34,912 nt of DNA from NCBI GenBank assembly GCA_021797675.1, contig JAJZZH010000160.1, forward strand, positions 1 to 34,912, in the 5' to 3' direction. Under the pieces are notes generated by a model, which made no database searches, had not been told where the DNA came from, and saw nothing but the letters and a program-made list of their open reading frames with translations. This stretch comes from Bacillota bacterium. GTDB taxonomy: Bacteria; Bacillota; Sulfobacillia; Sulfobacillales; Sulfobacillaceae. Below, piece by piece: positions 11,452 to 20,422 of the stretch (positions are counted from its first letter, which is position 1; every line of letters begins with the position of its first letter). The translations under genes were made by a program, and so were the position numbers.

Positions 11452-12138
11452 TTAGGATGGCTGACCATCTCTACCGTCTTCCCGCTCACGCGGCAACCGC
11501 CATGGGTTCGGCACCGCGAACAAATATCCCGCCAACATTAGGAACAAACCGACGATATTCATTACCGGCAGCACGGACAAAACCACCTCCTGAGGCGCCA
11601 GCGATCCCCCCACGCCAGAGGCCGTCGCCCCAACCGCGATGAGCAAAGTGCAATGGCGGCGTGACTTCCACCACGACCATAGGGCACCAACGACTACCAT
11701 GGTTCCACCAACGGAGGCCGTAGCCACGTAGGCGATGCGGGCTACTCCCGTGATCCCGCCCACGCCGGCATTTAGGGTTAACCAGTTGCCGATCACGGAC
11801 ATCGGCGAAAAACACGTGGAAATCAACAATCCGATGCCCACCAACCCTATCCCGACGGCATATCCGCGTGCCATGGGCCTCGCAAACGCCAGATATCCGG
11901 TGCCCACCGACATGGCTCCCACCAAGCCGGCCGACGCCATGATGTAGACATGGTACCAGGGCAGTGTCCATCCTTGGCTAACGGTGCTAGCCTCGGATCC
12001 ATAAGTCAAGGCGGACAAAACAAAAGAAATCGCCCACCAGAAGTAAAATGGGGACCGACGCGCTTGATACCGCACAAACAAGATAACCGAGAATCCCAAC
12101 GACACCGTGGCAGCCACCCAGAACAGTGCGGGTACCAT
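11452..12138 (-). CDS. Unknown seven-helix membrane protein
   Basis: I do not recognise this family. The 228-residue product has about seven evenly spaced hydrophobic segments beginning at residue 3 (VPALFWVAATVSLGFSVILF), short loops, and a polar, charged C-terminus (PREREDGRDGQPS). The overall plan of paired helices with aromatic residues at the interfaces resembles small 7TM sensor or lipid-enzyme modules, but no motif decides this. The ATG at 12138 has GGGGTGAG five bases upstream; a GTG at 12162 is the alternative. It is isolated, with no same-strand gene within about 1 kb. Confidence 0.7.
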   Translation of the reverse strand: MVPALFWVAATVSLGFSVILFVRYQARRSPFYFWWAISFVLSALTYGSEASTVSQGWTLPWYHVYIMASAGLVGAMSVGTGYLAFARPMARGYAVGIGLVGIGLLISTCFSPMSVIGNWLTLNAGVGGITGVARIAYVATASVGGTMVVVGALWSWWKSRRHCTLLIAVGATASGVGGSLAPQEVVLSVLPVMNIVGLFLMLAGYLFAVPNPWRLPREREDGRDGQPS

Positions 12139-12781
12139 GTCTCTCACCCCATCTGTTTGCACTCTAACAAATTCCTGTCAGCCGGCTTAGCCCCGTTCGG
12201 CCGTATCTCAGGGTCCGTTGGAACCATCTCCTTCGGGTCTGATTGGCCCCACTGCCCTCCGGTGGTGTTCGTGTAGACACAATGATTACCACTACCCTTG
12301 GGCAACGAGCAAGTAAGACCACCCACCTATCCGCCTCTGGACATCCGCCGTGACCGTGCCTGCCATGGACAATCTCCCCGGAGCGGAGGCGCCAATCTCT
12401 CCAAACCCGCCGTCGTTTAGCTATGCGATCGAGCCACGTAAGCTACCAAATTGTTCGTCGCAACGCACGCGACATACTCCGCCTGCGACCAGGAGCTAAA
12501 TGGTCCAGGCAATCGCCACGCGCCTGTCACTTTGGAATCACAAACGGCAGGAAAGTCGTACAATTCGTAGACGGGGAGGACGGACTCCACCCGGGCAGTT
12601 GCAGGGCATGGTACACTAAAGGCGATGCGGACCCGCAATGACCACCCAAACTCGGTTCAGACAGAAAACACACACCTAAATCGATGAGGAAGCGTCTGTT
12701 TCTCAAAAAAGGATGGACTTAATTCCCTGGCAACCCCCCGGGGATTTCCTAAACAGGATCGCAAGCAAGGGAGGGAGTTCG
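12139..12781. other. Gene-poor stretch
   Basis: No recognisable gene. A 73-codon minus frame (12417-12638) contains YELYDFPAVCDSKVTGAWRL, which looks protein-like, but it lacks a ribosome binding site and a family match. A possible promoter lies at 12609-12617. Confidence 0.35.
12609..12617 (+). promoter_or_regulatory. Possible extended -10 promoter
   Basis: TGGTACACT, the same form as the element before paaA. It lies about 165 bases upstream of the membrane protein gene at 12782. No -35 is apparent. Confidence 0.3.
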
Positions 12782-14680: not shown

Positions 14681-14967
14681 GTACCGCAGGTATTCACGAA
14701 GGGATCGGTACCCACCCGGCCGTCACCGCTGGCCATTGCCCCACCAGCCTTCCCGACCACCGACCACGGTGATTCCGGGCCCCTTATCCCGTTCAATACG
14801 GGGCGACCGGCCCTTGAGAGCGAGCGTGAGGCTGCACTATCCTATAACTAGGGAATTCGGCTGCTCGGACTCGGAACGCCTGGCTGAGCAATCACCGCAG
14901 TCAGCAGCCGAAACCAGGAGGCGTTCTGCTCCAAGCGGCCGCGATCCCGGAAGGGGGAAATCCATCC

Positions 14968-16134
14968 ATGGCCGACACTCCGGACCTCTTCAATGCAATT
15001 GCTGCCCATTACGACCGCTACAGTAATCTGCTCTCGGCTGACGGTATCCGCGTCTGGCGTCGGCACGCCATCGACCGTCTCGCCCTGCAGCGTGGTAACG
15101 ACGTGCTGGATGTAGGCTGCGGCACCGGCACCGCCACCGTGGAGATGGCGCGCAGGGTGGCTCCCAACGGGCGCATCACTGGGATAGACCCGTCCCCGGA
15201 GATGCTGGCGGTGGCCCGCACGCTGCTCCCGAAGGCCGATGCCAACGTGCAATGGCTATTGGGCCGGGCGGAAGCGTTGCCATTCGCCGCTCAGAGCTTC
15301 GATCGAGTCAGTGCCTTCTTTTCCTTACGCAACATGGGCGACTGGCGGCACGCCGTGCGAGAAATTCACCGGGTCCTCCGTCCAGGTGGACTGGCAGCCG
15401 TCTTGGACATGTTGCAGCCCGCGAGTACCCTGGGCACATTGGTTCTGAAAGGCCTCGATGCCCTGACTCGCCACACGGCTGTGGAGGGTCTCGAACCCTT
15501 CCGCTGGTTGCCGCGATCAGTCCTGCATGCTCCGACCGCCAATGAATTGCGTGCTCGCTTGGAGACCGAAGGCTTTCACTTAGTGTCGACGCATCATTGG
15601 CTGGGCGACTTGGTCACCCTGATGGTGGCTCGGCGGGAGGACGCAGGGCTTCGATCGGTTAGTTCGGACGATCGATCGGGGACCACGATTGTATGGGCTA
15701 CCAACGGGTCCGAGAGCAGTCTTCAAGCTGGCCAGTGGTTGGCCCTGCACGGCCTTGGAGCGTCGACCAAGGTTCACGTAGTGACGGTTTGCCCTCCCTT
15801 TGACCGCACCCCCGCTCCTTCTTTGGTCGATACCGACATTGTCGCTTGGAAGGCGGTGTTGAACGCCTCGCGTCGCTTGATCGCGCCCTATGCTGGCGTT
15901 CCGGTGACTGCCCGCCTGTTGTTCGGAACTCCAGCGGCAACCATTTTGCGCTACGCCCGGGAAATTGAAGCCAACCTGATCGTCATCGGCCAACCTCGGC
16001 GCAGTTGGGGTGCGCAGCGGCTTACCGGCAGCGTCTATCGCCGCGTGTGGAACCAAAGCCCCATCCCCGTTCTGATAATCCGCGACAACGGCAGACCGAC
16101 GCAATCCGCCGTCTTTCCCCTTACTCCTGGATAG
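14968..16134 (+). CDS. UbiE/MenG-type methyltransferase fused to a universal stress protein domain
   Basis: A 388-residue two-domain protein. Residues 1-225 are a class I SAM methyltransferase close to UbiE/MenG (quinone C-methylation): VLDVGCGTGTATVEMA (47-61) is motif I, GIDPSPEML the acidic loop, and AFFSLRNMGDW with IHRVLRPGGLAAVLDM the UbiE-like signatures. Residues 238-372 form a UspA fold beginning TTIVWATNGSESS and ending with LIVIGQPRRSWGAQRLTGSV and SPIPVLII. The usual ATP-binding G-x2-G-x9-G-S/T is present except that the second Gly is Arg344 (G341, R344, G354, S355). The ATG follows AAGGGGG by ten bases. It is convergent with the gene at 16140, with five bases between stops. Activity on demethylmenaquinone is plausible but not proven. 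Confidence 0.92.
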   Translation: MADTPDLFNAIAAHYDRYSNLLSADGIRVWRRHAIDRLALQRGNDVLDVGCGTGTATVEMARRVAPNGRITGIDPSPEMLAVARTLLPKADANVQWLLGRAEALPFAAQSFDRVSAFFSLRNMGDWRHAVREIHRVLRPGGLAAVLDMLQPASTLGTLVLKGLDALTRHTAVEGLEPFRWLPRSVLHAPTANELRARLETEGFHLVSTHHWLGDLVTLMVARREDAGLRSVSSDDRSGTTIVWATNGSESSLQAGQWLALHGLGASTKVHVVTVCPPFDRTPAPSLVDTDIVAWKAVLNASRRLIAPYAGVPVTARLLFGTPAATILRYAREIEANLIVIGQPRRSWGAQRLTGSVYRRVWNQSPIPVLIIRDNGRPTQSAVFPLTPG

Positions 16135-17788: not shown

Positions 17789-17822
17789 GCCGTCGGTGGC
17801 GCGGCCCCCGGCACGATGGATG

Positions 17823-17845
17823 GGAGGCCCCTAAAAATGGCCTCC
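17823..17845 (+). promoter_or_regulatory. Hairpin covering the ribosome binding site and start of the GH-A gene
   Basis: GGAGGCC (17823-17829) and GGCCTCC (17839-17845) are perfectly complementary around a nine-base loop that contains the AT of the ATG at 17837. The Shine-Dalgarno GGGAGG forms the 5' arm and the G of the start codon begins the 3' arm. Folding would block ribosome access. Confidence 0.5.
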
Positions 17846-20422
17846 GGGTTTTGGTTCAGGGGTGAAGGATTGCAATCGCAAATCTCTGCCACACTGCGAA
17901 GGACGCGGCCCCGGAGTCGTCGTCGACACGATTCAAGTCGACACGGGCTTGGTTTGCGATGGTGGGCGTGGAGTATGGCGACCCTGTTCACCGCGTGCGT
18001 GGTGGTGACAACCTCGCACGGATTGGGACGCGCCCCCTCCGGCACCGAAAACGACCTGTTTCTCGACAATTTTTCTTCGGGAACCTTACAGCCGTTGATT
18101 CCGTTTGGGGGTTCATGGTCTGTCGGTGCCCACGGTCTCCACGCGTCCGACCTCCAGCCGACTGGATTGGCCAACCAATTCGTCTACCTTCCCTATCAGC
18201 TGTCTAACGCCTGGATTACGACGACGGTGACCCTCCAACGGGCACCGCGCGCTCAAGCTTGGCGGCTCGGCCTGGTGGAACATGCCGTGGGAGGCAACAA
18301 TGCTGACAAGTGGGCGTTTGTGTTGCGCTCCAACCAAGTCTCGCTGCTCAACGAGAACACCGGATGGGTGAAGACGGCCCCGTACCATCCTCGCATCGGC
18401 ACGACCTACCACATGGAAATGGTCGCCAACGGCACCACGATTGATGGCAAGATTTGGCCTTCCGGTACCCGCCAACCAAGCCAGTGGACGATTTCTGGAC
18501 GGTTTGCGCCGAATCGGGTGGCGTTGGCACATAACGTCGGCTTATACGCTGCCAACGTCGTCGCGACCTTCCACACCTTTAGCATCTTGGCCCCGCCGCC
18601 TCCCATCTCCATTCAGCCCACCGCCTCAGCGGGGATTTTTGGACGTGGAAACCTGCCCGCCTATCAAATTCAGTTGCAAAATCCCAGCGTCCGTCCCCGA
18701 TGGATGCGCTTAAATTATGCGTTGCAAGGTTTGACCAGCACCGTCCGACGGCAGGGCCACTTTCTAACCGAATTGACCGCCACCGGTCCCCGTGTGCATC
18801 AACTGGCCTTGCCGACCCTGCCCAACGGGGTGTATAAAATTTCCTTCAGTCTCGCCAACGCGGATCCTCCGAAGACGGTTGTCACCCGGATCCCCTCGGT
18901 CAACTTCGCCGTCGTGCCCGCTCCCGCGCCGGCACTCAGCCACGGTTTCCTATGGGGATTGAATGCGAATTTGAATCCCTTGGGCCTTGCTCACGGGGGA
19001 CCGGTGTTAAACGAACACTTTGCCTTGATGCGCCAGCAGGGAATCGATTTGTACCGTTTGCAGCTTCCCTTGCAACCCCCGGGGCAGCGATTTCCCTGGC
19101 CGGTCTACAACCGTATCCTTCGTGACGCGGCCAATCAACATTTGAAGGTGCTCGGCTTGATAACGGGACCTTCACCGGGAAAACAGCACCCGTTGAAGTC
19201 CCTGGAAAAGCGCTATCGTGCCTTCGTTAAGGCGATCGTAGACCACTTTGGCCCGCAGGGCCGGTTAGCCCACCGGTCGGGGGGCGCCACGGCGATTAAC
19301 GATTGGGAGATTTGGAATGAACCCTCGACCCGCCAATATTGGCGGGCCACCCCAGCCCAATACGGACACTTGTTGTCGCAAGCCGTAGCTATCATCCATC
19401 ACCAGAGTCCGTCGGCCACGGTATTGGGCTACGCCTATGATCTGTCTAAGGTTTGGCCCGCCGACACGGTAAAACCCAACGGCTGGGCAATCCACTACTA
19501 TCCCGGCCGCCTCGGGCCGAACAATCCCGGCTACCCGTTATCTTCGGCTATCGGGCGCGTGCGCCGATTCCTGCGATTGCACCACCATGCAGCGAATATC
19601 TGGATTACGGAAACGGGATGGAACACCCAACAGGTATCAATGACCGCGCAAGCTCAGAATCTGGCCCAGGCTGGGATCGACGCACTCGCCGAAGGTGCCA
19701 AAGCAATCTGCTTCTTTACGCAAAGTTACTTCGGCTCCGGATTCGGTGAACAATCAACCGACCTCACCCCGTATCCGGCCTATGTCGCCGTGGCCACGGT
19801 TGATCGAACCCTGGCCGGTCTCGTTCCTTCCTCCAGCCAGGCCAACCTCGGCCCGCTGGTGATCAGCCACGTATTTACGGCGCCGGGAAAGCGCAGCGTG
19901 GTGACCATATCGTCTTCTCATTCGGCTACGTTGGATCTGCCTGCGGCCAATGGGATTGGCGCCTACACCGCACTAGGCAACGCTATTTATCCCGTTCATG
20001 GGCAGTTCACCTTGCCCCTCAGCAAGTGGCCCATCTATGTGGTGGGCCGCAGATGGCACGCCTCGATGCTAGCCAAGTTGGTCCACCAAGGCACGTTGAC
20101 GGGGGTACCCACGCTGCGCCTGAGCGCAGCGCCAGCCACTACCGCTCGCCACGCTCGATCCAAGACGGCGCGCTTCACCCTGACCGTGCAAAATGAGTCA
20201 AACCGTTCGCAATCCGGTTACTTACAAGTGAGCCCCCCCCTAGGCTGGACGACCCCCGACCCCATCCTGCCCTTTTCCCGGCTGGGCCCAGGTCAGACCA
20301 TCCGGCGGTCGCTCACGGTCCGTCAAATCATCCGCAGTGCAAAAGGTCCCTCGACGATCACCATCGATGCCGTCACCGACACGGCCCAAATCGTTCGGAT
20401 CTCCGTACCTCTGTCCAAATAG
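17837..20422 (+). CDS. Large exported clan GH-A glycoside hydrolase
   Basis: An 861-residue multidomain protein. A long basic N-terminus (about 40 residues) precedes a hydrophobic export segment (WWAWSMATLFTACVVVTT). A concanavalin-like beta domain (about 70-250) and an Ig-like linker domain (260-365) follow. The catalytic barrel (370-680) holds INDWEIWNEPS, with Glu495 as the probable acid/base, and IWITETGWN, with Glu592 as the probable nucleophile. A C-terminal NEW3-like domain (770-855) closes the protein. The two glutamates about 100 residues apart after strands 4 and 7 fit clan GH-A, resembling GH39/GH5-like enzymes acting on plant or exopolysaccharide chains. The ATG at 17837 has GGGAGG nine bases upstream; an ATG at 17816 is in frame. 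Confidence 0.85.
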   Translation: MASGFWFRGEGLQSQISATLRRTRPRSRRRHDSSRHGLGLRWWAWSMATLFTACVVVTTSHGLGRAPSGTENDLFLDNFSSGTLQPLIPFGGSWSVGAHGLHASDLQPTGLANQFVYLPYQLSNAWITTTVTLQRAPRAQAWRLGLVEHAVGGNNADKWAFVLRSNQVSLLNENTGWVKTAPYHPRIGTTYHMEMVANGTTIDGKIWPSGTRQPSQWTISGRFAPNRVALAHNVGLYAANVVATFHTFSILAPPPPISIQPTASAGIFGRGNLPAYQIQLQNPSVRPRWMRLNYALQGLTSTVRRQGHFLTELTATGPRVHQLALPTLPNGVYKISFSLANADPPKTVVTRIPSVNFAVVPAPAPALSHGFLWGLNANLNPLGLAHGGPVLNEHFALMRQQGIDLYRLQLPLQPPGQRFPWPVYNRILRDAANQHLKVLGLITGPSPGKQHPLKSLEKRYRAFVKAIVDHFGPQGRLAHRSGGATAINDWEIWNEPSTRQYWRATPAQYGHLLSQAVAIIHHQSPSATVLGYAYDLSKVWPADTVKPNGWAIHYYPGRLGPNNPGYPLSSAIGRVRRFLRLHHHAANIWITETGWNTQQVSMTAQAQNLAQAGIDALAEGAKAICFFTQSYFGSGFGEQSTDLTPYPAYVAVATVDRTLAGLVPSSSQANLGPLVISHVFTAPGKRSVVTISSSHSATLDLPAANGIGAYTALGNAIYPVHGQFTLPLSKWPIYVVGRRWHASMLAKLVHQGTLTGVPTLRLSAAPATTARHARSKTARFTLTVQNESNRSQSGYLQVSPPLGWTTPDPILPFSRLGPGQTIRRSLTVRQIIRSAKGPSTITIDAVTDTAQIVRISVPLSK

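Follow-up and report, generated by a model that had tools for sequence, protein, structure and literature searches.

Background

The described proteins closest to the gene analysed here are the quinone methyltransferases MenG, UbiE and COQ5 (PF01209, TIGR01934, TIGR02752) and the UspA family of universal stress proteins (PF00582; MJ0577, TeaD, MSMEG_3811). Shared with the methyltransferases are a class I SAM fold nearest to that of Coq5, the FxLRN motif, the N-terminal FxxIAxxYD...W segment and a full-length profile match; in Coq5 the catalytic arginine is Arg201 (PMC5289526). Shared with the UspA family are a complete five-stranded fold and a Gly-rich loop after the fourth strand. The sequence G-2x-G-9x-G-S/T is the common ATP-type motif of Usp proteins and is not required for Usp membership. 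The second Gly of this motif is present in half of the surveyed Usp structures, one protein with Lys at this position binds dAMP, binding of ATP or dAMP persists in Usp proteins whose motifs are degenerate, and dimerisation is common in the family (PMC3673472). A Usp domain acting as a nucleotide sensor attached to an enzyme is described in KdpD, whose internal Usp binds c-di-AMP (PMC4686210, PMC8214093); the KdpD host is a histidine kinase and not a methyltransferase, and the comparison concerns only how the two proteins may work.

Type strains of Sulfobacillus contain from 0 to 100% menaquinone (MK), the remainder being DMK-6 (PMC8489842). S. harzensis has DMK-6 only and S. thermotolerans all MK (PMC8489842 Table 3), and the share of DMK is 94% in S. 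sibiricus, 74% in S. benefaciens, 66% in S. acidophilus and 40% in S. thermosulfidooxidans (PMC8489842). Since these profiles vary between species, partial or regulated methylation is a real feature of the group. Here we analyse a window (the whole stretch of DNA, 34,912 nucleotides) from a Sulfobacillaceae relative, in which a UbiE-like methyltransferase is fused to a universal stress protein.

Results

Reading frame and domain layout

The fused gene is an ORF at 14968-16134 (+) that encodes 388 aa from an ATG start in a single uninterrupted frame, with neither an internal stop nor a frameshift found in it. Pfam assigns residues 6-216 to PF01209 (Ubie_methyltran; 122 bits, E 3.1e-35, gathering score 20.1) and residues 240-372 to PF00582 (Usp; profile positions 4-141 of 141, 78 bits, E 9.9e-22). 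The initial annotation of this DNA had proposed a methyltransferase and a UspA fold in one frame, separated by a short linker around residues 226-237. The fusion is borne out by the ORF, the Pfam matches and the orthologues. A frameshift or stop between the domains, named there as a ground for dropping the claim, is absent, and in the closest relative (G001, 74% identity) the gene is likewise one unbroken frame. The features of the gene are as follows.

14951..14957, + strand: Shine-Dalgarno-like AAGGGGG, 5' of the ATG (read from the sequence)
14968..16134, + strand: fused UbiE-like methyltransferase / universal stress protein gene, 388 aa (ORF, Pfam, orthologues)
14983..15636, + strand: UbiE/COQ5-type class I SAM methyltransferase domain, residues 6-223 (PF01209, AlphaFold2 model)
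15328..15333, + strand: Arg121-Asn122 of the FSLRN motif, equivalent to the Coq5 catalytic Arg and its neighbour (alignment)
15637..15681, + strand: inter-domain linker, residues 224-238, disordered and unconstrained (pLDDT, pN/pS)
15682..16083, + strand: Usp (UspA-fold) domain, residues 239-372 (PF00582, domain model)
15703..15705, + strand: Asn246 replacing a near-invariant Asp in the first Usp motif (WA-D-GS) (28-protein alignment)
15997..15999, + strand: Arg344 at the second Gly of the G-2x-G-9x-G-S/T motif (28-protein alignment)

G-rich sites resembling AAGGGGG also lie 5' of most orthologues. A promoter scan at the fused gene gave one chance-level match, and a terminator was not found.

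The full-length protein was modelled with AlphaFold2 from 28 homologues. The mean pLDDT is 86, and values below 50 occur only in the last ten residues and at residues 228-237, with high values on either side of the latter, so that the proposed linker is real. The solved structure closest to the methyltransferase model is SAM-bound yeast Coq5 (Z 26.3, 2.2 A, 212 residues; runner-up Z 23.2). Structure matches to the full model covered the methyltransferase only, none spanning both domains being seen, and the Usp domain was modelled and searched on its own. This domain model (pLDDT 89) is closest to ATP-bound MJ0577 (1mjh, Z 17.9); further close structures are TeaD, cAMP-bound MSMEG_3811 and other Usps bound to ATP, cAMP or AMP, and the KdpD Usp structure 7ji4 matches with Z 13.9. 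The structure prediction that had been advised thus confirms a UspA fold over its full length.

Distribution and neighbourhood

A search for the same fusion in other genomes, as the initial annotation had recommended, found it in 29 of the 42 genomes of the order Sulfobacillales examined, so that it is far from being absent in related strains. These comprise 27 of 34 Sulfobacillaceae genomes, the complete genomes of S. acidophilus DSM 10332 (G004) and S. thermotolerans Kr1 (G023) included, and two of the eight genomes of the order outside this family (G041, in a second family, and G035, in a third). Both Pfam domains are present in all 28 of the 28 fused proteins aligned. The window's genome carries a second fused copy on another contig (C60), with 46% identity over residues 1-373. 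Outside the order, 398 sampled genomes of the phylum yielded standalone methyltransferases only and no fusion. Mobile spread of the fusion was rejected because no fused protein was found on the 72,556 plasmids searched, where no record covered 80% of the query.

It is extremely improbable that two neighbouring genes were joined here through an overlooked stop codon or misassembly. Split or stop-bearing fusions occur as minor second copies only (G015 contig 36 and the second copy of G035), and nothing beyond them speaks for such an artefact. An artefact or frameshift is refuted by the 29 genomes of the order, complete ones among them, in which the frame is equally unbroken. Neither chance nor faulty assembly accounts for the fusion. 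The annotation had known of no described protein of this build, and none was found by us either: the literature searched held no description of a methyltransferase-Usp protein, and one S. thermotolerans proteomics paper held nothing on the fused protein.

The fused gene lies outside the men cluster, and neither an operon partner nor a wider neighbourhood is conserved around it. Only a hydrophobic, probable membrane protein of 231-236 aa recurs: four genomes encode it no more than about 6 kb from the fused gene, two of them directly upstream on the same strand. Its copies are located as follows.

11452-12162, - strand: probable membrane protein, window copy, 236 aa, no Pfam match
L127, 9010-9705: probable membrane protein
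L134, 8785-9495: probable membrane protein
L145, 4144-4851: probable membrane protein

An 868-aa ORF at 17816-20422 (+) without a Pfam match adjoins the fused gene also in the closest relative (L009); judging by its sequence, it may encode a secreted glycoside-hydrolase-like protein. Several genomes of the family also encode a distant standalone UbiE-like methyltransferase (G004:C1:3006690-3007343; loci L125, L118 and L127), which adjoins pyridine-nucleotide-disulfide-oxidoreductase-like and spore-germination-like genes.

Relationship to MenG

The methyltransferase had been taken for a quinone-type, MenG-like enzyme. Its place in the UbiE/COQ5 family stands; its membership in the MenG clade, a score above the MenG equivalog cut-offs and an association with menaquinone do not. 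The TIGR01934 subfamily cut-off of 158.35 bits was narrowly missed by the window protein (153.7-155.2 bits) and was passed by the fused methyltransferase in seven of the 27 fusion-bearing genomes of the family. The MenG equivalog cut-offs were missed widely (111.5 vs 419.85 bits for TIGR02752 and 154.6 vs 216 bits for NF001244). A maximum-likelihood tree places the fused proteins, together with a few standalone relatives, in a clade apart from 40 MenG/UbiE sequences, with support 95/92. Standalone sister methyltransferases (G034, G036, G037 and G025 in the order, G057 in the class) belong to the same subfamily with roughly 39-47% identity and, unlike the fused protein, have no Usp domain.

At the residue level, 35 of 56 positions conserved in MenG are kept in the fused methyltransferase. 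R121 and N122 are among them, and this pair is invariant across the 29 fused proteins and the 40 MenG/UbiE sequences. Unlike MenG/UbiE/COQ5 proteins, the fused protein has Ser (S19) for the Asn of YDxxN, has lost the cap-helix insert and the C-terminal AxHxG segment, and carries an added C-terminal Usp domain. The fused subfamily also has signatures of its own, namely WSxxLSxxGI, HAPT and HWLGDLV. The change of GTGD to GTGT, by which the motif I Asp is lost, was considered as evidence against MenG and rejected, since canonical MenG varies there too.

The window genome encodes MenD (476 bits) and MenA (114 bits), both above their cut-offs. No MqnA/D was found in it, and the futalosine route was rejected for this reason. 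A look for a separate menG, which had also been advised, found no canonical menG in this genome and no UbiE-type protein besides the two fused copies, the next match being at 58 bits.

Menaquinone and loss of the gene

Presence of the fused gene does not track menaquinone in the type strains. In S. thermosulfidooxidans DSM 9293 (G016) there is no fused gene and no UbiE-type match above 79 bits, and the quinone of this species is about 60% MK (PMC8489842). The syntenic site, which carries the fused gene in the near relative G029, is taken up in G016 by a sugar-transport operon, with no sequence gaps. The region G016:C1:1260000-1279900 (L210), compared with L114 of G029, contains a sugar ABC operon and a truncated remnant of the next gene. 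S. thermosulfidooxidans lost the fused gene and is a natural knockout. The genome G028, tentatively S. harzensis, has the fusion, and S. harzensis shows no MK under the conditions used. With MK made without the gene in S. thermosulfidooxidans, and the gene present in a DMK-only S. harzensis-like genome, the fused protein is neither needed for MK nor enough to bring it about. Because of this we did not file the fused methyltransferase as MenG; it is a sister subfamily beside canonical MenG/UbiE.

Among near-complete genomes, no clear coupling of the fusion to MenD was seen: G016, G038, G039 and G040 have MenD only, and G009 and G017 have the fusion without MenD. The four MenD-only genomes also have MenA, and a UbiE-type methyltransferase was not found in them at E 1e-25, which would point either to DMK as the end product or to an unknown DMK methyltransferase.

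Usp pocket and selection

The replacement of the second motif Gly by Arg344, noted in the initial annotation, is seen in the alignment as well. The window copy, in which G341, G354 and S355 are kept, fails the G-2x-G-9x-G-S/T motif. Gly341 is kept in 28/28 orthologues, the second Gly in 10/28 and the strict motif in 8/28. Asp246 is present in 27 of the 28, the window copy alone having Asn246. Unlike UspA-family proteins, the domain is fused to a methyltransferase and its window copy is without the motif Asp and the second Gly, while the paralogue on contig C60 keeps the pocket Asp and all three Gly. On its own, R344 is compatible with nucleotide binding, because a Usp protein with Lys at this position binds dAMP (PMC3673472). 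Judged from the sequence, the loss of Asp246 in addition to R344 does weaken the case for nucleotide binding by the window copy, and its pocket is partly degenerate (N246, R344).

Comparison of the window copy with G001 gave pN/pS values of 0.17 for the methyltransferase, 0.29 for the Usp domain and 0.84 for the linker. Over five close pairs, the values were 0.15-0.21 for the methyltransferase and 0.06-0.31 for the Usp domain, and the linker was near neutral in three of the five. Both domains are under purifying selection, the Usp domain diverging faster than the methyltransferase domain. Apart from the C-terminal tail, the linker varies more than any other part of the alignment. The fused protein is a stable, lineage-specific two-domain enzyme of Sulfobacillaceae, built from known parts.

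Discussion

Our preferred reading, which we hold tentatively and at somewhat less than even probability, is a quinol-type C-methyltransferase that is regulated, or dimerised and assembled, via its Usp domain. The N-terminal domain would carry out SAM-dependent C-methylation of a reduced isoprenoid naphthoquinol (demethylmenaquinol or a close relative), with catalysis via the Arg121-Asn122 pair as in Coq5. The Usp domain, held on a flexible linker, would dimerise the protein, and in many orthologues it may bind an adenine nucleotide, by which activity would follow the energy or stress state. In the window copy it may serve mainly for assembly, because the pocket is partly degenerate. As one Sulfobacillus species makes MK without the gene, the methylation step must be redundant. 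A regulated enzyme would fit a lineage with an unusually variable DMK/MK pool, and the range of 0-100% MK in Sulfobacillus is what partial or regulated methylation would give.

It is also possible, with a probability that we put clearly below an even chance, that the substrate is some other hydrophobic compound (a different quinone, a terpenoid or a lipid-linked phenol), MK being the product of an unrelated methyltransferase in the whole lineage. The separate subfamily with its three signatures, the position of the gene outside a men-operon context, MK without the gene in S. thermosulfidooxidans and the gene without MK in the S. harzensis-like genome all argue for this; however, the nearest fold and the best Pfam family are UbiE/COQ5, the Arg-Asn pair is invariant and the window genome has no other UbiE-type protein. 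A quinol methyltransferase whose Usp domain is a dimerisation or stability module only, with no nucleotide sensing, seems unlikely to us. It would agree with a strict motif in just eight of 28 proteins, with N246 and R344 in the window copy, with the faster divergence of the domain and with the dimerisation common in Usp proteins (PMC3673472), but Asp246 in 27/28, Gly341 in 28/28 and purifying selection on the domain speak against it, as does the binding of ATP or dAMP by Usps with degenerate motifs (PMC3673472). We consider it rather improbable that the Usp domain is a built-in sensor of ATP, AMP, cAMP or c-di-AMP that gates quinol methylation and sets the DMK:MK ratio. Tentatively assigned species offer anecdotal support for it, S. 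harzensis with an intact motif and 0% MK and S. thermotolerans with a degenerate motif and 100% MK.

Conclusions

To our knowledge, the control of the final quinone methylation step in Sulfobacillus is little understood. A methyltransferase with its own nucleotide-pocket domain would open a possible direct link of energy state to quinone chemistry to study with a single purified protein. Even if its substrate differs, the protein represents a family-wide domain combination of which the literature searched gave no description. The loss of the gene in S. thermosulfidooxidans provides a ready natural knockout. If gating by the Usp domain is true, the energy or stress state of Sulfobacillus would directly determine the redox potential of the quinone pool.
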